A DNA stretch of 41,235 nt from a virus, in IMG/VR virus record IMGVR_UViG_3300049448_000045, positions 1-41,235 of that record. The stretch is one strand, 5' to 3'. Positions 3,247-41,147 of the stretch are shown piece by piece. A program made the position numbers and the translations under genes. Below the pieces are notes generated by a model. The model was given only the letters and a program-made list of their open reading frames with translations. It searched no databases and was not told the DNA's origin. The first letter of the stretch is position 1, and each line of letters opens with the position of its first letter.

Positions 3247-3301
3247 GCCTTGATTTGTGGCCCGCAAGTGCGGTACAAATGAGGAGAATAAGAACTATGG
3301 C

Positions 3302-3478
3302 GTGTCACAATTGGCTTCTCAGGGTATGGATGTAACGGTTAAGGTTCGGCTCACTAAGGCCGACCGCGCGCTATTCGAGGCGGCGGCTAAGGCATCGCGT
3401 CTTACACTATCGGCGTGGGTTCGTTCTGTGGTCGCGCAAGAGGCATTGAAGCTTCAGGGTCAGAAGGTGATTGCGTGA
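3302..3478 (+). CDS. Small ribbon-helix-helix-like protein
   Basis: The core has a short beta strand (VTVKVRLTK) followed by two helices (ADRALFEAAAKASRL and TLSAWVRSVVAQEALK), the layout of ribbon-helix-helix DNA-binding proteins, including plasmid mobilisation accessory proteins. The start is unclear: the frame is open from GTG 3257, GTG 3302 follows GAGGAG (3281-3286) by 15 nt, and ATG 3326 begins just at the beta strand. The same GAGGAG is ideally placed for ATG 3297, which opens only a 12-codon peptide (MACHNWLLRVWM) ending at 3335, across the 3326 start, so leader coupling is possible. The stop overlaps the next gene. Likely DNA-binding regulator; target unknown. Confidence 0.6.
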   Translation: MSQLASQGMDVTVKVRLTKADRALFEAAAKASRLTLSAWVRSVVAQEALKLQGQKVIA

Positions 3479-10651: not shown

Positions 10652-12649
10652 ATGCTCCGGATTTGCTGCGTCAAGGTCAATTCTGCGTATGATGCAAGAT
10701 ATGTGAATGTCTTGTACGACTGCGTTACGCGCAATCTTGATGAAGGCACGGCTGGTGAATTTCACTGCTTCACGGATAACCCTGAGGGGCTGCATCCCAA
10801 CATCATAACGCACCCCGTTCCGTCCGAGTTCACGGGATGGTGGGCTAAACTGCATCTGTTCAAGGACGGTCATTTCGAGGACGGAGACAGAATTGTCTAC
10901 ATCGACCTCGATACGGTGATCTTCGGTCCGCTTGATGACATCGTGCGGTATAGCGGACACTTTGCTATCCTAAGAGACTTCTTCAAGCCTCATAACGATA
11001 TGCAGAGTGCCATCATGGCATGGCCCGCAAATACACAGCAGGCCATTTTGGACAAGTGGGTTGCGCTTGGCAGGCCAGAACTACAGGGCGGCGATCAGGA
11101 ATTGATCCAGATGTCCCTTGAGGAGCGCGGGATTGTTCCCGACTTCCTGCAAGACCTCTTTCCCGGCAAATTCGTCTCGTACAAGAGCGGCAGTTACAAG
11201 CGCGTGCCTCCGAGAGGGGCGAGTGTTGTCTGCTTCCACGGCCAGCCCAAGCCCCACAACTGCGGGTCTAGTTGGGTTGACGGCGTGTGGAAGATTGACG
11301 GCTCCATGGCATTTGAGATTGAGCAGTTCTGCAATACGGAAGATGCCAAGGTTGAGGCGAATATCAAATATGCCGTCTCCAAAGGCTTTCCGTGGCTCGC
11401 GCTCAAAGACGCGCATGAGAGAACGGCTGTAATCTGTGGCGGCGCTCCGTCGCTCAAGAACACATGGCGCGATATCTGGTCCTGCACGGACTTCGATGTG
11501 TTCGCCTGCAACAATACGGCTCGGTTTCTTGAGGAGCGCGGCATTGATGTTGCCTATCATGTCGTTGTCGATGCCCGTCCTGAGATCGTAGAGTTTATCC
11601 AGCCAACGGCTCCGAGGAAGGGTTATCTGCTCGGATCAATGTGCGATGTTGGCGTTTTCTTGGCCGTGAACAGCGGTGCTGTCACTGTTTTTCATCCCAA
11701 GGTAAAGGGCGTTGTCGAGTTAATCGAGAACGATCCGCGCGCCAAGTGTATTGTTGGTGGCGGCTCTACGGTCTGCCTCAAGGCAATCGCAATCGCCTAC
11801 ATCATGGGCTATCGGAAATTCCATCTGTTTGGCATGGATTCCAGCTATTCTGGAGACGAACATCACGCCTATCCGCAAAGCCTGAATAATGATGATCCAA
11901 TTGTTGAGGTTCAGGTTGACGATCAGTATTTCAAGACCTCTCCATGGATGGTCGCACAGGCTGACGAGTTTGATGACCTTGTGTGCGAACTTCTAACCCT
12001 CGGCTGCACGTTCGATATCTCAGGTGACGGTCTTATCCCCTATATCTGCCGCGACCGGGTTAATAGTACGAAGGTCTGCGCTGCCGATGAACGCGCTCAG
12101 GCTATTCTAAGCCGCCTTCCGAGAGGAGAAATCCGGGGCGCTGAGATAGGCGTCTTTGCTGGCGATCTATCGTCCCGCCTTCTGGCCCGTGAAGGATTGA
12201 ATCTCTCCATGATCGACTCATGGGCTCCGAATGGCGAGGATTACGCGCCGGGTTCGGATGACTTCCACGCTTCCCTGACATGGGACCAGCAAAGCAAGTT
12301 CATGCAGATGTCCATTCGCGCGACGGACTTTGCCAAAGACAGACGAACAATTATCGTCATGTCTTCCGAAGCGGCGGCGCAGAACTTCACCGATGGCATG
12401 TTGGACTTTGTGTTCATTGATGCCGATCATTCCTATGAGGGATGCAAGCGCGATATCGCTGCATGGTATCCGAAGCTCAAGGATGGAGCCCTGCTTAGTG
12501 GTCACGACTATGACCATCCTGAATACCCCTCATGGGGCGTGAAACGAGCCGTGGATGAGTTCGCCAAATCTCACGGGCTTAGTGTCGATTTTGGCGAGAA
12601 CATGACTTGGTTCATCAACAAACCGCTCGCGAAAGAAATCGCGGCTTAG
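10652..12649 (+). CDS. Three-domain glycosyltransferase / MptE-like / methyltransferase
   Basis: A 665-residue fusion. Residues about 1-225 look like a GT-A glycosyltransferase: MLRICCVKVN start, 'GWWAKLHLF' and the metal-binding DxD in RIVYIDLDTVIFGPLDD (D85, D87). Residues about 255-460 match the DUF115/MptE-like fold: 'TAVICGGAPSLKN', 'VFACNNTARFLEERGIDVAY', 'GGSTVCLKAIAIAY' and 'FHLFGMDSSYS'. Residues about 485-655 are a class I SAM methyltransferase of the Methyltransf_24 type: 'GAEIGVFAGDLSSRLL', 'LDFVFIDADHSYEGCKRDIA' and 'DGALLSGHDYDHP'. It sits inside the virion-assembly operon, so it may modify a virion or host-surface glycan; the substrate is unknown. All three active-site motifs look intact. 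Confidence 0.8.
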   Translation: MLRICCVKVNSAYDARYVNVLYDCVTRNLDEGTAGEFHCFTDNPEGLHPNIITHPVPSEFTGWWAKLHLFKDGHFEDGDRIVYIDLDTVIFGPLDDIVRYSGHFAILRDFFKPHNDMQSAIMAWPANTQQAILDKWVALGRPELQGGDQELIQMSLEERGIVPDFLQDLFPGKFVSYKSGSYKRVPPRGASVVCFHGQPKPHNCGSSWVDGVWKIDGSMAFEIEQFCNTEDAKVEANIKYAVSKGFPWLALKDAHERTAVICGGAPSLKNTWRDIWSCTDFDVFACNNTARFLEERGIDVAYHVVVDARPEIVEFIQPTAPRKGYLLGSMCDVGVFLAVNSGAVTVFHPKVKGVVELIENDPRAKCIVGGGSTVCLKAIAIAYIMGYRKFHLFGMDSSYSGDEHHAYPQSLNNDDPIVEVQVDDQYFKTSPWMVAQADEFDDLVCELLTLGCTFDISGDGLIPYICRDRVNSTKVCAADERAQAILSRLPRGEIRGAEIGVFAGDLSSRLLAREGLNLSMIDSWAPNGEDYAPGSDDFHASLTWDQQSKFMQMSIRATDFAKDRRTIIVMSSEAAAQNFTDGMLDFVFIDADHSYEGCKRDIAAWYPKLKDGALLSGHDYDHPEYPSWGVKRAVDEFAKSHGLSVDFGENMTWFINKPLAKEIAA

Positions 12650-33026: not shown

Positions 33027-33542
33027 ATGCGTAGATATAAAGAACTTCTCAAACCTGAGACTCTTAGATCACTTCTCTCTTACGATCCAGAAAGTGGTGA
33101 TTTTAAGTGGATAGAAAAGAGATTTAATGGAGCCGATTCTGGACAAAGCGCAGGCTCTATAAACCGATACGGATATCGGAGGATTTGCGTTTTTGGGTCT
33201 TATTATACCGCCCACAGGCTTGCATGGTTATTACACTATGGCGTTGAACCTAAGGGCTCTCTAGATCACATAAACGGCGTTCGATCTGATAACCGTATAG
33301 CCAATCTTAGAGAGGCAACTAATTCTCAAAATGGCTACAACATGTCTCTTTCATCTGCCAGCAAGTCTGGGGTGAAAGGCGTTAGATTTTACTGCAGAGC
33401 TGGCAGAAAAGATAAATGGTCTGCGAGAATCATGGTTCAAGGAGAGTCTATATTCTTAGGCTTATTTGATACTCTTGAAGAAGCAAAATCTGCGAGATTA
33501 TGCGCCGCTGAAAAATATCATGGAGAATTTGCGAGGCCGTAA
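33027..33542 (+). CDS. HNH homing endonuclease with AP2 domain
   Basis: A 171-residue protein. 'AHRLAWLLHYG' (about 62-72) and 'LDHINGVRSDNRIANLREAT' (79-98) form the HNH/NUMOD4-like catalytic core, with H63 and the D80-H81-N83 cluster. Residues about 112-168 ('SGVKGVRFYCRAGRKDKWSA', 'FLGLFDTLEEAKSARLCAAE') are an AP2 DNA-binding domain. Such free-standing genes spread into phage genomes by cutting intronless or geneless alleles. The coding DNA looks more A/T-rich than its neighbours (by eye), a sign of transfer. It interrupts the stretch between the membrane-protein genes and the endolysin. Confidence 0.85.
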   Translation: MRRYKELLKPETLRSLLSYDPESGDFKWIEKRFNGADSGQSAGSINRYGYRRICVFGSYYTAHRLAWLLHYGVEPKGSLDHINGVRSDNRIANLREATNSQNGYNMSLSSASKSGVKGVRFYCRAGRKDKWSARIMVQGESIFLGLFDTLEEAKSARLCAAEKYHGEFARP

Positions 33543-33586: not shown

Positions 33587-34102
33587 ATGAATTGGCCGAC
33601 TACCGATGCTGATTTAATCCGGCAGGTCATCCTCTACAATGAGGGCGGCTATGTGAACAATCCGGCAGACAAAGGCGGCCCAACTCACTACGGGATTACC
33701 CAAGATACGCTCGCATCATGGCGCGGCCACCCCGTCACGGTCGATGACGTAAAGAATCTCCCGATGGCCGAGGCTATCTCAATCTACGAGAAGCGTTACA
33801 TCGTAGACCCGAACTTCATCCTCATATCCGATATAAAGTTGCGCACAGCCCTTGTAGATGCTGCCGTGCTGTTTGGCCCTCAGACTGTAATCAAGGCTCT
33901 ACAGGGCATTCTAGGGGTCAAGGCGGACGGTGTTCTTGGAAACGATACTGCGGCAGCGGCGGGACGGCTTGAAGCAAGGGGGCTAATCAATTCCCTCTCT
34001 GTCTGGCGAGTTACGCGCCATGCTTCAAGAGTAGACGCGGACCATTCCCAGATAGTGTTCTTGAAGGGCTGGATGGCTAGGGCGACGAGCTTTATTGTCT
34101 AA
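33587..34102 (+). CDS. Endolysin, GH108-type muramidase
   Basis: A 171-residue protein. Residues 14-37 (VILYNEGGYVNNPADKGGPT then HYGIT) carry the GH108/zliS signature E-G-G-Y-x-N-x-x-D-x-G-G-x-T-x-x-G-I-T with catalytic Glu19. The C-terminal part ('ALVDAAVLFGPQTVIKALQG' through 'VWRVTRHASR') matches the PG_binding_3 region of the same family. It cleaves the glycan strands of peptidoglycan; there is no signal peptide, so it needs a holin or pinholin. Its stop overlaps by four bases with the convergent small membrane gene of the minus-strand module. Confidence 0.85.
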   Translation: MNWPTTDADLIRQVILYNEGGYVNNPADKGGPTHYGITQDTLASWRGHPVTVDDVKNLPMAEAISIYEKRYIVDPNFILISDIKLRTALVDAAVLFGPQTVIKALQGILGVKADGVLGNDTAAAAGRLEARGLINSLSVWRVTRHASRVDADHSQIVFLKGWMARATSFIV

Positions 34103-34305
34103 GAGCAAAGCCCGCGACCGTGAAACCCAAGCCACTCACCTCCACCGCCCGTCAGAATACTGATTAGGACGACACAGACGACAATAGCAAAGACAACCCT
34201 GATGACCCAAGAAAACGGCTCAGGAACGGGCACTTGCTGGATGGCCCACCATACAATCGCGAGGATCAACCCCGCGACAAGAAGCGTAATCAAGATGCTG
34301 AGCAT
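34099..34305 (-). CDS. Small two-TM membrane protein, end of minus-strand module
   Basis: The frame has an ATG at 34311, but AAGGGG at 34318-34313 is correctly spaced (7 nt) only for the ATG two codons later at 34305. The 68-residue product has two transmembrane helices ('LSILITLLVAGLILAIVWWA' and 'SWVIRVVFAIVVCVVLISIL') and ends in a Gly-rich tail. It resembles the 'Thivi_2564' family of small membrane proteins of unknown function. It is the last gene of the leftward operon, 53 nt beyond the ATPase, and converges on the endolysin, so a holin role is an alternative. Confidence 0.65.
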   Translation of the reverse strand: MLSILITLLVAGLILAIVWWAIQQVPVPEPFSWVIRVVFAIVVCVVLISILTGGGGEWLGFHGRGLCS

Positions 34306-34358
34306 ATCCATTCCCCTTTAGTATCTCAGAGAGAACGGGGTGTGGGGTGGAAAGTTCC

Positions 34359-35186
34359 CTAAAGTGTCGGGAACAGAGACTTAATCTCGTTTACTGTCGG
34401 GATAAACGCAACCATGTGCTCCACGTCTTTATGCCACGCCAGATCGCGCTCAATCAGGTCAATCGTCTGTTGAATACGAGCCCCCCGAACAGGATTACCG
34501 TGTACGTCCTTGTCGCGGCCTAGAAGAAGGATTGTATCCGCGATCATAACGGCGCTCTCAATGTCATGCGTCGAGAAGATGATGGTGTTTAGCTCGTCTC
34601 TGGCCGCTACGTTGTCGATCATATCGCAGACGACTTTCTTCATGATGATGTCAAGCCCTGAAAATGGCTCGTCCATGAGCAGGAAGTGGCTGCTGGATAG
34701 TAGCTGCTCTGCGATGGATACACGCTGTCGCTGGCCACCGGAAAGCTGCTGAGGATAGAAATGGCGCTTGTCGGCCAGTCCGAAGTCGCTCAAGACCTGA
34801 TAGGCTTTGGCCTTCGCTTTTGCGGCGTCCTTTTCTTGCCGTCCTGCCGCTAGTAAGAGCGTGCTTTCAATCGTGCGATGCTCAAAGAGAAGGTAATTCT
34901 GAGGGACAACGCCGACCATACCAGCTTTGACCGGCTTCTGATCTGGACCGATTGCGACTGTTCCCGATGTTGGCGCGGAGAGTCCAGATAGCCTGCGGAA
35001 TAACTGAGTCTTTCCCATTCCGCTTGGTGCCAGAAGCGCCACCTTTTGGCCTTGTGTCAGTCCAGTACGCTTAATATCCCGTATCTCAAAACTCACATCA
35101 TGCAGGATCGGGAAATCGTATGAGACGGAAAGACCCGTAACCTTGAGCAGCAATTCGTCTTTTACATATTGGAACTCGGACGACAT
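34359..35186 (-). CDS. ABC transporter ATP-binding protein
   Basis: ATG 35186 shares a base with the permease stop; the frame is open upstream (to 35219) only inside the permease gene. All ABC ATPase motifs are present in 275 residues: Walker A 'LLAPSGMGKTQL' (51-62, first Gly replaced by Ala), Q-loop 'VVPQNYLLF' (93-101), signature LSGGQRQR (148-155), Walker B 'HFLLMDEPF' (167-175), D-loop 'SGLD' and H-loop 'IFSTHD' (203-208). The type is the NitT/TauT import family, in keeping with the neighbouring permease. It would power the transport system encoded by this operon from the cytoplasm. Confidence 0.9.
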   Translation of the reverse strand: MSSEFQYVKDELLLKVTGLSVSYDFPILHDVSFEIRDIKRTGLTQGQKVALLAPSGMGKTQLFRRLSGLSAPTSGTVAIGPDQKPVKAGMVGVVPQNYLLFEHRTIESTLLLAAGRQEKDAAKAKAKAYQVLSDFGLADKRHFYPQQLSGGQRQRVSIAEQLLSSSHFLLMDEPFSGLDIIMKKVVCDMIDNVAARDELNTIIFSTHDIESAVMIADTILLLGRDKDVHGNPVRGARIQQTIDLIERDLAWHKDVEHMVAFIPTVNEIKSLFPTL

Positions 35187-35959
35187 TAGAGAGCCTTTCC
35201 AAGTCTTGCGTATGGACAAGCGATGTAGTTCTTGAACGCGCCGAGCAGGAAGTCTTGCAGCATACCAACGGCAAATAGGGAAATCAGGATTGCCGCCTCT
35301 GCGGAGAGGTCCATGTGACGGTTCATGTTGATTAGGACAACGCCTATCCCTCCTTCCGAGCGCACAACGCCTTCAACCATCGTAAGCATCATCCAGCCCA
35401 TGGCTGCGTTGACGCGGAGAGATTCCAAGGCATCCGCGAGAGTGCCCAGAATAACCACTTCCCAGATGACACGGAACTGAGAAAGGCCAAGTGTGCGGGC
35501 ATGATCGTACTGTTCTTCCGGGATATTGCGGACGACATGAATCATATCGCGGAGATAAAACACCGTCATTCCGAACGTGAGAACCATAACCTTGAGGGCA
35601 TGGCCTGTTGGAGCGAGCAAGGTGAACGCCAGCATCAACCCGACTAGGCCCAAGTATCGAAGCCCTGTAATGAATTGAACCAGAGGGCGCATTGCTGGAA
35701 GTACAGACAGATAAGCGAGAAACAGCGAGAGTGCGACGGTCCACAAGATGGATTCCGCCATGGTTTCTAGGCTTGTTCCAAACTCTAGGAACGTGCCTTG
35801 CTGTCTAAGTGTCTCGAATGAGGAAAGAACCTCCATCGGCTTTGGCAGGAATTGAATGTCTGAGAATTGCCAGAATAGGAAGGCGGCAACGCCCCATGCC
35901 AGAGAGATATACAATCTTCCTTGGCGTGAAACGTTGCCGTTGGGGAGAAGTGCGTTCAT
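35186..35959 (-). CDS. ABC transporter permease (NitT/TauT-like)
   Basis: A 257-residue inner-membrane protein with about six hydrophobic helices ('YISLAWGVAAFLFWQF', 'ILWTVALSLFLAYLSVLP', 'LGLVGLMLAFTLLAP', 'ALKVMVLTFGMTVFYL', 'AAMGWMMLTMVEG', 'AILISLFAVGMLQDFLLGAF'). Residues about 149-181 ('EEQYDHARTLGLSQFRVIWE' onward) are the EAA loop that docks with the ATPase. The BPD_transp_1 fold and order are typical of taurine/nitrate/thiamine-precursor importers. ATGA overlap with the 50-residue peptide gene upstream (35956-35959) and a one-base overlap with the ATPase downstream. No partner permease, so a homodimer is likely. Confidence 0.85.
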   Translation of the reverse strand: MNALLPNGNVSRQGRLYISLAWGVAAFLFWQFSDIQFLPKPMEVLSSFETLRQQGTFLEFGTSLETMAESILWTVALSLFLAYLSVLPAMRPLVQFITGLRYLGLVGLMLAFTLLAPTGHALKVMVLTFGMTVFYLRDMIHVVRNIPEEQYDHARTLGLSQFRVIWEVVILGTLADALESLRVNAAMGWMMLTMVEGVVRSEGGIGVVLINMNRHMDLSAEAAILISLFAVGMLQDFLLGAFKNYIACPYARLGKAL

Positions 35960-36108
35960 TTACGGAGCCCAAAGAGCCTCTGAATGCGGTGTTTGACATT
36001 CTCTACAAGGATCAAGATTCCGAGCCCCGCAAATATGAGCGCAATGATACCCCAGACGATAAGTCCGAGAATGTCATGTACGCTCCAGACCACGAACATA
36101 TGCGGCAT
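35956..36108 (-). CDS. Single-TM 50-residue peptide
   Basis: Start ATG at 36108, with 'tggaga' as ribosome site in the end of the preceding gene. The stop overlaps the permease start (ATGA). The product is MPHMFVVWSVHDILGLIVWG followed by IIALIFAGLGILILVENVKH and a basic C-terminus (RIQRLFGLRK). It has one long hydrophobic helix and a positive tail, so it probably spans the inner membrane with the C-terminus inside. A small subunit or regulator of the transporter is plausible; no family known. Confidence 0.6.
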   Translation of the reverse strand: MPHMFVVWSVHDILGLIVWGIIALIFAGLGILILVENVKHRIQRLFGLRK

Positions 36109-36110
36109 TG

Positions 36111-36305
36111 CTATCTCCAGAGTTCACGATTGAAGACAGCCTTGAAGCCATCATTCATGGCCTTTGCCATCTTCTCCATCTCCTCCGCAATCTTGTCGCG
36201 ATTGTCTTTGGACGGCCACACAGTCTTTTTGGGAGTTTCCGTTGTCTGCGTTTGGAGCGCGATGTGTTCTCCGCAATGCGGACATTCGATCAGAGATTCT
36301 TTCAT
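36111..36305 (-). CDS. CPHC-type small protein (64 aa)
   Basis: Starts MKESLIECPHCGEHIALQTQ. Cys8 and Cys11 form one CPHC pair (a second pair is missing, so a zinc site would need a dimer or His14). The rest is a charged amphipathic helix ('SKDNRDKIAEEMEKMAKAMN'). Located two bases ahead of the one-TM peptide and five after the OmpA-fusion gene, so it is part of the operon. The CPHC could alternatively be a redox motif, as in thioredoxin-like proteins, but the fold is absent. Confidence 0.6.
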   Translation of the reverse strand: MKESLIECPHCGEHIALQTQTTETPKKTVWPSKDNRDKIAEEMEKMAKAMNDGFKAVFNRELWR

Positions 36306-36314
36306 GGCTTTCTC

Positions 36315-38084
36315 CTATTGACCAAGGGTGATTTCGACACGGCGATTCTGCGCCTTGCACGCCGCCGTATCATTCGAGGCGCACACGGGCATATCCTGAC
36401 CATGGCCGACAATTTCAAGGCGGGAGGCAGGGAAGTTTGCGGGTGCCTTTGATGTCAGCCAGTTTGCCACCGCCGCTGCACGCTGTTGAGAGAGCGCAAC
36501 ATTGGCCTGTGGGTTGCCAGTATTATCCGTATACCCATCGAGACGAAGGCGCAGATTTGTCATAACCGCTGTGTCCTCAATCTGCGTAAGAACGGCAATC
36601 GAGGATGCCTTGACCGTGGCGCTGCCAGAATTGAACTCAATATGCCATGCGCGCTTCGATACTGTCTGCGTAATTGGGGCCGCAGAGGCGTATTGCGGAG
36701 CCGCCACACCCTGAGCTTCAGGAACGCCCTGTAGTGCATCGGTTAGGTAAGACAGGTCCACAACGTCATCATAGGCCGGGATAGAGCCGCTACCTGACTT
36801 GGGGTAGTCAGTCGGGTAGAATGCCTCGTCATAGCCTTTGAACACACGGTAGACGGAGGCAAAGATGTTCTCTGTTCCTGAGCGGATGCCGAAGTAATCG
36901 CGCGCCTCTTGTAGCGTGATTACTTTTGACCCTCCAAGAGAGACTTCTTCGCCAAGGCGGTTATGCCCGATTTCGCCCTTGAAGTAACGAGCCCAATAGG
37001 AAGCGTCCTGTTCATGGAAAATCTGGGCATGGATGCCGCCCATATCCATGAGAGCCGCGCTGCTGGTACGGATCAGGATTGCGCCACGATCTGCAGCCTT
37101 CAGAAGCCCGACAACATAGTCATGGTGAGACTGCATCCAGCTTTTGACGCCGATAATCAGTGTCGGCATCTGACCTGCATAATCATGCGTAGAAGCAACA
37201 CCGACAATAGAGCCGTCGAACTTGCTAACCACGTCTACGTCGCCCGGTGTCCATGTCGCTACACCGTTGACACAGACCTTCTTTGTGCCGTGCGTAATAC
37301 CGTGAGACACGACTAGGCGGTCTTCGCAGGCGTGAGAGATAAGTTTCTCGTCAGCCGTGGTGAATGCGTCAACGTCCATGAAGTTGATGGCGTCTGCATC
37401 GTAGGTTTTCTGATCGGTATTGATTGGAATACCGTTGTCCGATGCCCACTTGACACAGATGTTCCAGTCACCGTCACGGGGAACGGCAGCTACAAGAACG
37501 CCCTTGGCCTTCTTCGGGTCTTTCTGTGCATCGGATGGCATCATGCACTTGTCCTCACCATCGGAAAACCCGATCACGCCGATAGCGGCGAACTGACCCG
37601 GAATTAGCTTCTGGAGGGCCGCTGCCACATAGGGGTATCCATCCCCCATGATGGTAAAGAAAGCGTCTCCACGGGCACCGTTGGACGTTACGAACGCGGC
37701 CATATTGGCTTCCATCTGCCCGTAGTCATCCTGACGCTTGATCGTTAGGCATCCGTTGCCAGTGTACTTCTCGACAAGCGAGCCGCGAGACGTGGAAGAC
37801 CCGCCGTTGGCGATGGTGAGCCCACCATGCGCGTTCCACGCCAGAACTTCCATAACCGGACAGTCAGTCATGTTCGCAGGCTGAGCGGTGACGGGAAGTG
37901 GGTATGCCGTGGTGTGATCTGCCACGGTAAAATGCTGGATGGTTGTGGCGACTGGAACCGCAGAGACAGTCTGAGCGGGTTTTCCGATCAGGCCGGTCAT
38001 AACTGCCAGCTTGGCCCCTCCCCATAGAACGCCGACACCTACCACGGCGATAACTGCAAATCCTGCGCGCGTAATCTTGGCCAT
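36315..38084 (-). CDS. Substrate-binding protein fused to OmpA domain
   Basis: A 589-residue envelope protein with a good ribosome site (gaggagag). Residues about 7-32 ('AGFAVIAVVGVGVLWGGAKL') are a signal or membrane anchor. The middle (about 75-450) looks like a periplasmic type-2 substrate-binding protein of the NitT/TauT or phosphate kind ('WNAHGGLTIANGGSSTSRGS', 'MDVDAFTTADEKLISHACED', 'DVVSKFDGSIVGVASTHDYA'). Residues 480-589 are a complete OmpA-like peptidoglycan-binding domain: 'WHIEFNSGSATVKASS', 'LDGYTDNTGNPQANVALSQQ', 'VGHGQ' and 'NRRVEITLG'. It would hold the binding protein on the cell wall while feeding the permease. Cysteines in the exported part suggest disulfides. Confidence 0.85.
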   Translation of the reverse strand: MAKITRAGFAVIAVVGVGVLWGGAKLAVMTGLIGKPAQTVSAVPVATTIQHFTVADHTTAYPLPVTAQPANMTDCPVMEVLAWNAHGGLTIANGGSSTSRGSLVEKYTGNGCLTIKRQDDYGQMEANMAAFVTSNGARGDAFFTIMGDGYPYVAAALQKLIPGQFAAIGVIGFSDGEDKCMMPSDAQKDPKKAKGVLVAAVPRDGDWNICVKWASDNGIPINTDQKTYDADAINFMDVDAFTTADEKLISHACEDRLVVSHGITHGTKKVCVNGVATWTPGDVDVVSKFDGSIVGVASTHDYAGQMPTLIIGVKSWMQSHHDYVVGLLKAADRGAILIRTSSAALMDMGGIHAQIFHEQDASYWARYFKGEIGHNRLGEEVSLGGSKVITLQEARDYFGIRSGTENIFASVYRVFKGYDEAFYPTDYPKSGSGSIPAYDDVVDLSYLTDALQGVPEAQGVAAPQYASAAPITQTVSKRAWHIEFNSGSATVKASSIAVLTQIEDTAVMTNLRLRLDGYTDNTGNPQANVALSQQRAAAVANWLTSKAPANFPASRLEIVGHGQDMPVCASNDTAACKAQNRRVEITLGQ

Positions 38085-38101
38085 TTTCTCTCTCCTCAGA
38101 T

Positions 38102-39130
38102 TTAATGGATCAGGCCGGACAAAACATTTGCCGGGTCTGGTTGACTGGTGGACGCAAACGAAGCGGGCGAAGGCAAAGCCGTTGCCTGCGTAGACTGGAT
38201 AAGCTTCGTGCCTGTCGTCTGGACCTGTTGAAGCATGTCCTCATTGAAAGAGGCGTTCTCCACGTCGATGGATTGCAGGAACGGCTCTGCGAATTTCTTG
38301 AGGTGATCCAGATGGCCAAGCTCCGCGCCGTACTTATCATCAATGACGGACTCTGCCTGTTCTGCATCGGCCCATACTTGGGTCTTGGTACGGCCAAGGA
38401 TGCGGCTTGCGGAACCTACCGCTGCATTAACCGCCTTCTGCGTCTCCCATTTATCCTTGAGAAGATCGCGCTCGATTTCCAGTTTCTGCGCCGTGATGTC
38501 TGCCGCTTGCGAGATTTTCTGGAATGTCGCGCGTGCAGGTTCAAGGCGTGCGGCTGTGGCATCATAGGAAGCCGCAATATCCTTGTACGATCCGAACTTG
38601 TGAGCCGCAACGTCCTGCGCGCCAGTCGCGCCAGTCTTGGCAGCAGCAATGCCGAACCTTTGAGCTTTCAGGCTGGCATCGCGATACTTTGCAGCCTTGT
38701 CGTGCAAGCTGGAAATAAGGCCGTCTAGCTTCTCGAATTGTGCCTCGAATGTCACCTGATCGGCGCGCACTGAATTGATGCGCGTTGTGATCGGAGAAAG
38801 AGGGTCAATCGTGATAAAGAACCTTGTGAGGCCGTTGACGATTGACCAATACGGCAGGCGCAGAAGATGGTTGATACTGCCGTTTGCGCTAAGCGTCTCG
38901 CGTGCCAGCCACAAAGCGACGACCAAGCCAACGCCGGAAGCGACGGTATAGATGCTGTTTTCCAAGATGGTGTTGAGCAGGGTTAGTGCCGTAACCATCG
39001 TGGGTGCGACCGCATTGAAAGCGATGACAGCGCCGAGGATGATTGCAGCGCCGCCACCATATTTGACGACTTTCTGCATGACCTGAGATTCAGGCGGTGT
39101 CCATGGCTGAGAGACAAGATCGTTCGACAT
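38102..39130 (-). CDS. Two-TM coiled-coil membrane protein (342 aa)
   Basis: Residues about 25-52 ('GGGAAIILGAVIAFNAVAPT' and on) and 58-77 ('NSIYTVASGVGLVVALWLAR') are transmembrane helices. From about 115 to 250 it is a long cytoplasmic alpha-helical region ('TRINSVRADQVTFEAQFEKL', 'ATFQKISQAADITAQKLEIE', 'RDLLKDKWETQKAVNAAVGS') consistent with a coiled coil; the C-terminus is Gln/Thr/Ser-rich. It is the third gene of the leftward operon. No family is recognised; it may connect the transporter to the cytoplasmic coiled-coil protein encoded just before it. Confidence 0.65.
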   Translation of the reverse strand: MSNDLVSQPWTPPESQVMQKVVKYGGGAAIILGAVIAFNAVAPTMVTALTLLNTILENSIYTVASGVGLVVALWLARETLSANGSINHLLRLPYWSIVNGLTRFFITIDPLSPITTRINSVRADQVTFEAQFEKLDGLISSLHDKAAKYRDASLKAQRFGIAAAKTGATGAQDVAAHKFGSYKDIAASYDATAARLEPARATFQKISQAADITAQKLEIERDLLKDKWETQKAVNAAVGSASRILGRTKTQVWADAEQAESVIDDKYGAELGHLDHLKKFAEPFLQSIDVENASFNEDMLQQVQTTGTKLIQSTQATALPSPASFASTSQPDPANVLSGLIH

Positions 39131-39139
39131 GATTAGCCC

Positions 39140-39763
39140 TTATGAGATTGAGGAAAGGAGTTGTTTAGCCTGTAGAAGCGGGGCGCTTAGCTGATCTTCA
39201 ATGAGTTTGAAGCGGGCAGAACCATCGCTAATAGCCTTCTCTGCATCGTGGGCCGCTTGCGTTAGTTGCGAGATGCGGGCCGTGCGTTCTGCGATCTGCT
39301 GCTGTGCCGCTACGTTCTGCGCCGTGAGATTGGCCATCTCTTGCGTAGGCCCGTCAATGCGTGCCGCCCGCGCTTGTCCTAGCTGACCATCAAATTCAGA
39401 CTTCTTGGAAGCGATGATGCTAAGATGCGCGTCAATGTCGGCCAGCACTTTCTCAGCCGTCACGCCGGGATTGGCAGCGGCCAGAACATTGAACACGGTC
39501 TTGAGGTCTGAGGTATTGCCAAGAGTCTCGCGAACGCGCTGGAATGTTTTGTAGCTTGACGGGATAGCGTACACTTGCGCTTCCAAAGCCTTGAGACGTT
39601 CTGTATCTTCTGGGCCAAGGGTAGTAGTCGTGTAATTGGCGGCGGGTGTGTATGCAGGCATCGGAGGAACATCAACGCCGGGATGCATGTTCCGAACGAC
39701 TGGCTCTTGGCTCGCAACTGGATCGTCGCTTTCCATAAGGCCCATTTTTTGTAGAAGGCTCAT
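39140..39763 (-). CDS. Soluble coiled-coil protein (207 aa)
   Basis: Starts MSLLQKMGLMESDDPVASQE. The first 60 residues are Pro/Thr-rich and disordered. Residues about 60-200 are predicted helical ('EDTERLKALEAQVYAIPSSY', 'AEKVLADIDAHLSIIASKKS', 'ERTARISQLTQAAHDAEKAI'). Its start overlaps the stop of the ribbon-helix-helix gene (ATGA, 39760-39763). It has no membrane helix and may assemble with the 342-residue membrane protein next to it. PspA-like or TelA-like helical proteins come to mind, but no signature supports either. Confidence 0.65.
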   Translation of the reverse strand: MSLLQKMGLMESDDPVASQEPVVRNMHPGVDVPPMPAYTPAANYTTTTLGPEDTERLKALEAQVYAIPSSYKTFQRVRETLGNTSDLKTVFNVLAAANPGVTAEKVLADIDAHLSIIASKKSEFDGQLGQARAARIDGPTQEMANLTAQNVAAQQQIAERTARISQLTQAAHDAEKAISDGSARFKLIEDQLSAPLLQAKQLLSSIS

Positions 39764-39939
39764 TTCGCTGATGCCGCCTCGGAAACAATCTTCATGGCTT
39801 CCTTGAGAAGCTGCGCGCGGCCCCAGACTGAGGGGGGGAGGCCAAGAAGCCTTGCGGCTTTGTCAATCGTGGCGCGGTCCTTCTTGCCTAGAGCAATGGA
39901 TAGGCCCGTGGTTTTCTTGTCCGCAGATTTATTGACCAT
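39760..39939 (-). CDS. Ribbon-helix-helix regulator (59 aa), first gene of module
   Basis: The frame is open from 39981, but ATG 39939 follows AGGA (39950-39947) at 7 nt, and the upstream part overlaps the candidate promoter. The product begins MVNKSADKKTTGLSIALGKK and goes on 'DRATIDKAARLLGLPPSVWG' then a basic helix. Strand-helix-helix with 'TTGLSIALGKKDRATIDKAA' fits ribbon-helix-helix repressors. It heads the operon and sits beside a TGTGA-N5-TCACA dyad at 39956-39970, so autoregulation of the transport operon is likely. Confidence 0.65.
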   Translation of the reverse strand: MVNKSADKKTTGLSIALGKKDRATIDKAARLLGLPPSVWGRAQLLKEAMKIVSEAASAK

Positions 39940-39952
39940 GCGTTCGTATCCT

Positions 39953-39973
39953 ATATGTGACCGTATCACACAT
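39953..39973 (-). promoter_or_regulatory. Candidate operator dyad
   Basis: TGTGA (39956-39960), five bases, TCACA (39966-39970): a perfect 5-base inverted repeat, extended imperfectly to ATATGTGA/TCACACAT. It overlaps the candidate -10 region of the leftward promoter, the position expected for a repressor. Two direct copies of AATGGCAC (39974-39981 and 39984-39991), ten bases apart, lie next to it and could be half-sites for a ribbon-helix-helix dimer. Confidence 0.45.
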
Positions 39974-39997
39974 AATGGCACGGAATGGCACTGTCAA
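39969..39997 (-). promoter_or_regulatory. Candidate promoter of the minus-strand module
   Basis: Reading leftward: TTGACA (complement of 39992-39997, perfect consensus), 17-nt spacer, TATGTG (complement of 39969-39974, 3 of 6). The predicted start is near 39962, about 23 nt before the ATG at 39939. The weak -10 inside the operator dyad suits a regulated promoter. Confidence 0.45.
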
Positions 39998-40223: not shown

Positions 40224-40577
40224 GTGGCACATAAAACTCTCGTAGTCATCGCAGTATGCGCAGCTTTGGGAGGATGTGCCCAGATGCAGGGCGTATTCGG
40301 CAATTCTACGGCTCAACAGGACGTGGAAAAGAGCCTGACAGTTGCGCACCTTGCTCACAAAGGCTTGGCTGATGAACTGAAGTATGCCGCTGATACTGGT
40401 CTCCTTCATGGCCAAAACGCCGTGACCGCGAGAACCTATCTCGACAAATCAGAGGTGCTTTTGCAGCAGGCAGATTCCGCCTTCGCAGCGGGACAGTCTA
40501 TCTCGTCTCAACTTAACGAGGCAACGGCCTTGATGTCTCAAGCCGCGCCTCTCGTTCCCAATTCCGCCAAGCAGTAA
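40224..40577 (+). CDS. Lipoprotein (117 aa)
   Basis: GTG start with a GAGGAG ribosome site 8 nt upstream. MAHKTLVVIAVCAALGGCAQ is a lipoprotein signal with lipobox LGGC and Cys18; Ala19-Gln20 after the cysteine favours outer-membrane sorting. The mature part is helical, with heptad-like 'QQDVEKSLTVAHLAHKGLAD' and 'YLDKSEVLLQQADSAFAAGQ'. An outer-membrane spanin, scaffold or exclusion lipoprotein is possible; none is proved. First gene of the rightward block beyond the transport module. Confidence 0.7.
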   Translation: MAHKTLVVIAVCAALGGCAQMQGVFGNSTAQQDVEKSLTVAHLAHKGLADELKYAADTGLLHGQNAVTARTYLDKSEVLLQQADSAFAAGQSISSQLNEATALMSQAAPLVPNSAKQ

Positions 40578-40586
40578 GGATCGGTC

Positions 40587-40790
40587 ATGAACGTCACGCT
40601 CATTCTCCAGCTTATCGCCGCCTTCCCGCAGGCGCTCGTTGAAATCACCGCTCTGTGGTCTGCAATCCGCACCACGTTCTCCAATGACGATCAGGTCACA
40701 ATCGACAAGGCGCTTGCCGACGCGCAGGCTGGCGATGCTACTTCTACTGCTGCCGCCGATGCGTCCCTTGACGCTGCCTCAAAGAAATAA
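40587..40790 (+). CDS. Small hypothetical protein (67 aa)
   Basis: Ribosome site 'aaggatcgg' precedes ATG 40587. The product starts MNVTLILQLIAAFPQALVEI, an amphipathic or weakly hydrophobic helix, then becomes acidic and Ala/Asp-rich ('DKALADAQAGDATSTAAADA'). It is not a clear membrane protein. It lies between the lipoprotein and the holin-like gene. No family recognised. Confidence 0.5.
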   Translation: MNVTLILQLIAAFPQALVEITALWSAIRTTFSNDDQVTIDKALADAQAGDATSTAAADASLDAASKK

Positions 40791-40793
40791 CCC

Positions 40794-41147
40794 GTGGATC
40801 AGACCGACGCCAGCCTAGACTCCGTATTCTCTGCCGTCAGGGGCCTTCTAATCGCCTTTGGCGGCATTTTGTCTGCCAATGGATATGGAGATAGCGGGCT
40901 TTACAAGTGGGTTGAGATTGGGGCCGGTAGCGTTCTAGTCGTCGGCCCTCTCGTCTGGGGTGTGATCGACAAGATTCAGAAATTCCGCCAGAAGAAAGCT
41001 GCTGTCACCGCTGGCGTCAATGCGGGCATGGCCTTGGCTGCATCGGGACAAATGCTTGTCCATGCGAATGGCTCTCCCGTTACTGCCTCGGATGAGACGG
41101 CTAAGGAAATTGTCCAGACCTTCGCTCCAGAAGCCAAGGCGGCGTAA
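40794..41147 (+). CDS. Holin-like membrane protein (117 aa)
   Basis: GTG 40794 follows the previous stop by three bases. Residues about 13-28 ('SAVRGLLIAFGGILSANG') and 37-59 ('KWVEIGAGSVLVVGPLVWGV') are hydrophobic; the connecting loop is short and the C-terminus starts with a basic stretch 'KIQKFRQKKAA' and is Ala-rich. This shape is close to two-TM phage holins found in proteobacterial phages. It would make the lysis hole or pinhole for the endolysin at 33587, although the two genes are separated by the minus-strand module. Its stop overlaps the next ATG. Confidence 0.6.
   Translation: MDQTDASLDSVFSAVRGLLIAFGGILSANGYGDSGLYKWVEIGAGSVLVVGPLVWGVIDKIQKFRQKKAAVTAGVNAGMALAASGQMLVHANGSPVTASDETAKEIVQTFAPEAKAA

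Follow-up and report, generated by a model that had tools for sequence, protein, structure and literature searches.

A phage-borne ABC transporter cassette with a membrane-anchored PspA/IM30 relative and a predicted wall-tethered binding protein

The stretch of DNA analysed here (the window) is a single IMG/VR virus record of 41,235 bp, IMGVR_UViG_3300049448_000045. Its minus strand carries an operon in which a predicted ABC transporter, with a binding protein fused to a peptidoglycan-binding OmpA domain, is encoded together with a soluble helical protein (CC1) and a membrane-anchored probable relative of PspA/IM30, the bacterial ESCRT-III protein. PspA takes its name from its induction by phage stress, and here a phage carries such a relative beside a predicted wall-tethered ABC transporter. 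The recurrence of this cassette in many giant phages, the laboratory-grown Bacillus phage G among them, suggests that phages manage the membrane of their host. We lean slightly toward reading the cassette as an energised device for membrane maintenance or remodelling, in which the inner membrane would be tethered to peptidoglycan.

The operon lies in the lysis region of a tailed phage

The window contig is a tailed phage. Matches to PHROGs identified TerL, portal, and major head and tail genes on its plus strand, and the operon sits inside the lysis region, between a GH108 endolysin gene and a lipoprotein-like/holin-like set; its initial annotation as a phage operon stood. The holin-like gene matched the Pam3 gp28 holin family at an E-value of 1e-4, under that family's curated cut-off. 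The record is probably a fragment of a phage genome, since the annotated window proteins are all structural or lytic and no replication genes were seen among them. Features of the locus are as follows.

33587-34102, plus strand: GH108 endolysin gene, one flank of the operon
34099-34311, minus strand: small two-TM protein, 70 aa, TM 6-24 and 36-54; accessory ORF, membership unsupported
34359-35186, minus strand: predicted ABC ATPase, 275 aa from ATG 35186 (TTG 35219 possible); ABC_tran 2.3e-24
35186-35959, minus strand: predicted ABC permease, NitT/TauT type, 257 aa; BPD_transp_1 5.7e-6
35956-36108, minus strand: one-TM peptide, 50 aa, TM 17-35; accessory ORF, membership unsupported
36111-36305, minus strand: CPHC miniprotein, 64 aa; accessory ORF, membership unsupported
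36315-38084, minus strand: SBP/OmpA fusion, 589 aa; hydrophobic anchor 11-29, putative NMT1-like SBP domain, OmpA domain 484-573
38102-39130, minus strand: probable TM-anchored PspA/IM30 (ESCRT-III) relative, 342 aa; N-terminal TM hairpin, helices 112-166, 169-245, 252-287 and 297-314
39140-39763, minus strand: CC1, 207-aa soluble helical protein; small helical N domain and a single helix of about 100 residues
39760-39939, minus strand: RHH-like putative regulator, 59 aa from ATG; GTG start at 39981 possible
39956-39997, minus strand: candidate promoter/operator; TTGACA 39997-39992, CCATT repeats 39988-39984 and 39978-39974, 10 bp apart
39970-39956, minus strand: palindrome TGTGATACGGTCACA, last part of the candidate promoter/operator
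40224-41147, plus strand: lipoprotein-like gene and holin-like gene, other flank of the operon

Three other genes of the window were noted on the plus strand. An HNH_3 endonuclease with a weak AP2 match (33027-33542) lies just 5' of the endolysin gene and may be a mobile homing gene within the lysis region. A 665-aa protein with MptE-like and Methyltransf_24 domains (10652-12649) is encoded among the structural genes, and a 73-aa NikA/TacA1-like RHH protein (3257-3478) near the terminase.

All nine ORFs of the initial annotation were confirmed on the minus strand (34099-39939, or to 39981 with the GTG start; intergenic gaps of -34 to +47 bp), but only the RHH-like gene and the five core genes proved to be conserved. 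The nearest relative, a 156-kb viral contig (L002/L009), keeps these at 52-77% identity. No credible relative of the CPHC miniprotein, the one-TM peptide or the small two-TM protein turned up in that contig or elsewhere among the viral and chromosomal loci searched, and a place in the machine for these three smallest ORFs is therefore unsupported. The RHH-like protein matched no Pfam model, and its 66% identical relative, at the equivalent place, was found in L002/L009 only. As judged from sequence conservation, the conserved unit is the five core genes (CC1, the 2-TM coiled coil, SBP/OmpA, permease and ATPase) plus a local putative RHH regulator.

A promoter and operator had also been proposed at the head of the operon. 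Part of this proposal is shared with the relative: a -35-like box and two CCATT repeats after it (TTGACAG..CCATTCC...CCATTA) also occurs upstream of the L002 operon. However, the palindrome TGTGATACGGTCACA is absent there, and a consensus promoter scan listed no promoter at the operon head. Because the CCATT repeats are common to L002 and the palindrome is not, they may be the better operator candidate, although this is only suggestive.

The 2-TM protein is related to PspA/IM30

The evidence for a PspA relationship comes mainly from the 2-TM protein family. When 88 viral 2-TM proteins were aligned with 14 chromosomal PspA proteins in hhalign, the probability was 96.7 and the E-value 4.5e-10 over 210 columns, whereas controls with reversed alignments and other coiled-coil families reached at most 40% over 21 columns. 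Against the PDB, an 89-row profile of the family ranked Vipp1/PspA first (2e-5 to 7e-4); in a seven-row profile PspA was not at the top. The Pfam model PF04012 was matched by 6 of 89 family members, more than any other family model; most members gave weak matches or none, and the window protein itself had no Pfam PspA match. In an Acidobacteriota locus (L149), a classical PspA (PF04012, 3.3e-15) occupies the operon position of the 2-TM protein, with an AAA ATPase downstream. Searches of phages by tblastn with the 2-TM protein and with a classical PspA gave no matches.

Structure prediction agreed with the profiles. In the AlphaFold2 model of the 2-TM protein (pLDDT 81), helices of 55, 77, 36 and 18 residues come after an N-terminal TM region; this is the ESCRT-III core pattern, in which a long helical hairpin precedes shorter helices at the C terminus. 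The top seven Foldseek hits of this model were all Vipp1/PspA (probability 1.00, TM-score by target 0.55-0.65), with whole-model E-values of 0.003-0.07 that are not significant alone. Taken with the profile comparisons, the model makes it well supported that the 2-TM family are PspA/IM30 (ESCRT-III) relatives, less so from the window protein's own sequence. A TelA/XpaC identity considered for the two helical proteins had no Pfam support at E-values up to 1, and PspA fits. Acinetobacter phage ME3 also has an annotated PspA/IM30 protein.

The initial annotation had held that the composition of the operon points beyond simple uptake, and this gains substance because one of its two helical proteins is a PspA/ESCRT-III relative. 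The other, CC1, belongs to a family present in 86 of the 93 viral loci described below; its AlphaFold2 model (pLDDT 86.7) had no fold match, and its coiled-coil matches in the PDB were uninformative.

The transporter and its binding protein

The permease and ATPase are predicted components of a NitT/TauT-class ABC importer, and the closest solved structures to the permease are CmpB and the nitrate permease. Translation of the ATPase from its likely ATG at 35186 gives a 1-base overlap with the permease gene. The motifs of the two proteins had been described as intact. The family matches and the ATPase motifs LSGGQ, LLMDEP, SGLD and HD bear this out, but the first Gly of Walker A is Ala (APSGMGKT), as it is in the nearest relative.

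The SBP/OmpA protein has one N-terminal hydrophobic segment. Its NMT1-like (NMT1_2/NMT1) domain was recognised in distant members, namely one of the seven A1 members and the phage G proteins, and not in the window protein; within the main clade the SBP motifs GDGDWNI and TWTPGDV are strongly conserved. The OmpA domain was matched at an E-value of 2.8e-14, and its Asp520 and Arg535 are invariant. We take these to be the pair that grips the diaminopimelate of the wall peptide. The SBP/OmpA protein should link the inner membrane to the wall, with no outer membrane required. The machine had been called envelope-spanning, and this should read as reaching from the inner membrane to peptidoglycan: no outer-membrane part is indicated, and one phage with a relative infects a Gram-positive host.

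The cassette is widespread among viruses and inherited as a unit

Profile scans of IMG/VR returned 57 loci with the permease and 77 with the SBP, and 103 distinct IMG/VR contigs carry the cassette, 33 of them of at least 200 kb and the largest of 578 kb. All 15 of the Lak records listed in INPHARED match, complete circular Lak genomes hold the cassette, and it is found in a 462-kb phage (LR756500) and in the 735-kb LR756501/LR756503. The cultured Bacillus phage G carries it in rearranged form: permease gp243, ATPase gp245, CC1 gp246 (1e-9) and, beside these, gp247, which matched the PspA profile at 3.6e-16. Two tandem SBP/OmpA genes, gp249 and gp250 (L224:8824-12029), complete the block and suggest two ligands or a heteromer. 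These counts overturn the view that a full importer is very rare in phages.

Reduction of the IMG/VR contigs together with LR756500, Lak-B5 and the window gave 93 distinct viral loci. The gene-order search that the initial annotation proposed found the exact order CC1, 2-TM coiled coil, SBP, permease, ATPase in 77 of these, and contig ends cut most of the others, including each of the transporter-only loci L054, L056 and L077. Pairwise distances of the five core families were correlated for all pairs (Mantel r 0.89-0.94; shuffle maximum 0.18), and the cassette is therefore inherited as a unit. The conserved order and the co-variation also bear out the assignment of the helical proteins to the transporter. 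We regard PspA homology together with inheritance as a unit as highly likely.

The cassette recurs across phages that are otherwise unrelated in their genes. Each flanking gene family occurs in no more than 17 of the 93 viral loci, and a terminase model was matched in 13 of 31 viral records tested. The window portal had no match in the 13 other carrier records searched, a null result that suggests, weakly, that the cassette moves between unrelated phages. A plasmid search found no full-length relative, only matches to the OmpA end. The window operon has no AAA+ ATPase, and an AAA gene was seen near 8 of the 93 viral loci; as five of these are weakly related and three lie more than 3.5 kb upstream, they were rejected as part of the module.

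Chromosomal relatives

A scan of chromosomal genomes yielded 276 relatives, and the best 80 of the 276, which were kept, come from Acidobacteriota, Armatimonadota, Myxococcota, Bacteroidota and others. Their arrangements include CC1-PspA-SBP-PERM-ATP-C300-AAA and SBP-PERM-ATP-C305-CC1 as well as the phage-type order. The family is sparse on chromosomes: among the other genomes drawn, 4 of 148 from Acidobacteriota and 2 of 147 from Bacteroidota carried it. C300/C305 is a conserved coiled-coil family whose members are about 300 aa long and begin with a hydrophobic stretch near the N terminus (L149:13297-14199, L171:13602-14519); many chromosomal modules have it 3' of the ATPase gene, and nearly all viral ones lack it. 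In Xanthocytophaga flavus, a Ppx-GppA-like protein (L163:8829-9860) is encoded between the PspA-like and SBP genes.

In a quick FastTree tree with long branches and a chromosomal sample picked by similarity, viruses fell on several deep branches with chromosomal groups interspersed, giving at least ten virus-bacterium changes. The window and L009 lie within a virus-only clade of nine. L010 clusters with Armatimonadota and L083 with Hymenobacter chromosomal modules, and both are possibly bacterial sequence classed as virus. Diversity of the cassette was greater in the viral sample than in the chromosomal one, which is biased.

A possible membrane-maintenance function

Several observations count in favour of a membrane device: the lysis-gene setting, the invariant Asp and Arg of the OmpA domain, the fixed gene order, the co-variation of the core families and the PspA homology. 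Against it, the well-conserved SBP motifs fit plain uptake equally, and we give membrane maintenance as the purpose of the cassette roughly an even chance. If the cassette does serve in this way, the PspA-like protein would polymerise on the cytoplasmic face, around the transporter, while the binding protein would sense or deliver a small anionic solute or else sense strain between wall and membrane. ATP turnover may drive or regulate assembly and disassembly of the polymer, a role comparable to the part that the AAA+ ATPase may play in chromosomal versions. The viral loci mostly lack an AAA+ gene, and disassembly of an ESCRT-III-like polymer is therefore a guess. CC1 might act as an adaptor, and in the window phage the RHH protein would repress the operon. 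The net effect would be a host inner membrane that is stabilised or remodelled during infection, with the cell kept energised until the phage's own holin acts.

The cassette may instead be a plain importer for high-affinity uptake of an anionic solute (bicarbonate, nitrate, sulfonate or phosphonate-like), in which the PspA-like protein and CC1 only stabilise the complex. The resemblance of the permease to CmpB and the nitrate permease, the NMT1/NMT1_2 identity of the distant binding proteins and the conserved SBP motifs of the main clade would all be expected of such an importer. However, ordinary NitT/TauT importers have, to our knowledge, no PspA, CC1 or OmpA tether, and of the viral loci with sufficient sequence, only the chromosome-like L010 has the transporter without a PspA-like gene. 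We consider uptake as the whole function unlikely.

Less likely still is a device for superinfection exclusion or against rivals, which would alter the inner membrane against DNA injection by a second phage or block a membrane-acting host defence. The location of the cassette at membrane and wall would suit this role, and the main text of PMC7162821 raises the possibility that huge-phage proteins of the membrane and surface influence susceptibility to other phages. A Zorya ZorB-like match was also obtained, via the shared OmpA/MotB domain only. No dedicated defence family was matched, PADLOC giving only partial ABC, coiled-coil and OmpA matches, and bacterial chromosomes carry the core genes, if sparsely, so that a housekeeping or stress role fits as well.

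That the operon is an ordinary chromosomal one captured at a prophage edge, or the result of a mis-assembled contig, is very improbable: chromosomal relatives exist and a few "viral" contigs are chromosome-like by tree position (L083, L010), but the window operon is flanked on both sides by phage lysis genes, its nearest relatives form the virus-only clade, and phage G and complete circular Lak genomes carry the cassette. Two outcomes that the initial annotation had named as contrary to it, such a prophage-edge operon and helical proteins unrelated to the transporter or not conserved with it, are thus not what was found.

Returning to the membrane device, a wider proposal can be made tentatively, at somewhat less than even confidence. 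Giant phages and some smaller ones would encode a dedicated ESCRT-III-type machine, coupled to ATP and fixed to the wall via the binding protein, that remodels or guards the host inner membrane during infection, a class of host-takeover device not described before. The cassette offers a tractable case both of giant-phage action on the host membrane and of an ESCRT-III-like protein coupled to an ATP-driven membrane complex.

Comparison with known systems

The initial annotation knew of no described system of this composition, and in this it was mistaken. From genome comparison, PMC11237479 (2024) describes in its main text chromosomal operons that encode PspA or TM-bearing Snf7 homologues together with an AAA+ ATPase, an ABC ATPase, a permease and a PBP-OmpA protein (example OGG56892.1), and it suggests that membrane remodelling and transport are linked. 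Those operons share with the viral cassette a PspA/Snf7-type protein, also TM-bearing, an ABC ATPase, a permease and a solute-/peptidoglycan-binding protein. Unlike them, the cassette is phage-borne, has a fixed five-gene order with CC1 and keeps AAA+ outside its viral core, and the window phage adds an RHH regulator. The main text of PMC11237479 names no virus. The module is likewise not named in the main texts of PMC7162821, which mentions membrane proteins in general terms, PMC8346664 and PMC6784885, and no paper on the viral version was found among the open-access main texts searched. The viral form is widespread and mostly lacks AAA+; it appears to be new, whereas the chromosomal kind had already been predicted.

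The 2-TM protein shares the helix pattern, sequence profile and predicted fold of PspA/IM30/Vipp1 but carries a two-TM hairpin ahead of its PspA-like part (one TM in phage G gp247). With NitT/TauT-class importers (CmpB, NrtB) the cassette shares a permease, an ATPase and, in distant members, an NMT1-like binding protein; it differs from these in that the binding protein is membrane-anchored and fused to a peptidoglycan-binding OmpA domain and, in the window phage, in the Ala at the first Gly of Walker A. ESCRT-III-like proteins are also reported in Borgs (PMC12660748), giant virus-like elements; unlike the window phage, Borgs are archaeal elements, and the main text of that paper names no ABC transporter.

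The closest cultured counterpart is the gp243-gp250 block of Bacillus phage G, in which only single parts are annotated. It likewise groups the genes for permease, ATPase, CC1, PspA-like protein and SBP/OmpA, and differs in gene order, in its two SBP/OmpA genes and in the single TM of its PspA-like protein. Because this phage is cultured, the function of the cassette is testable now.
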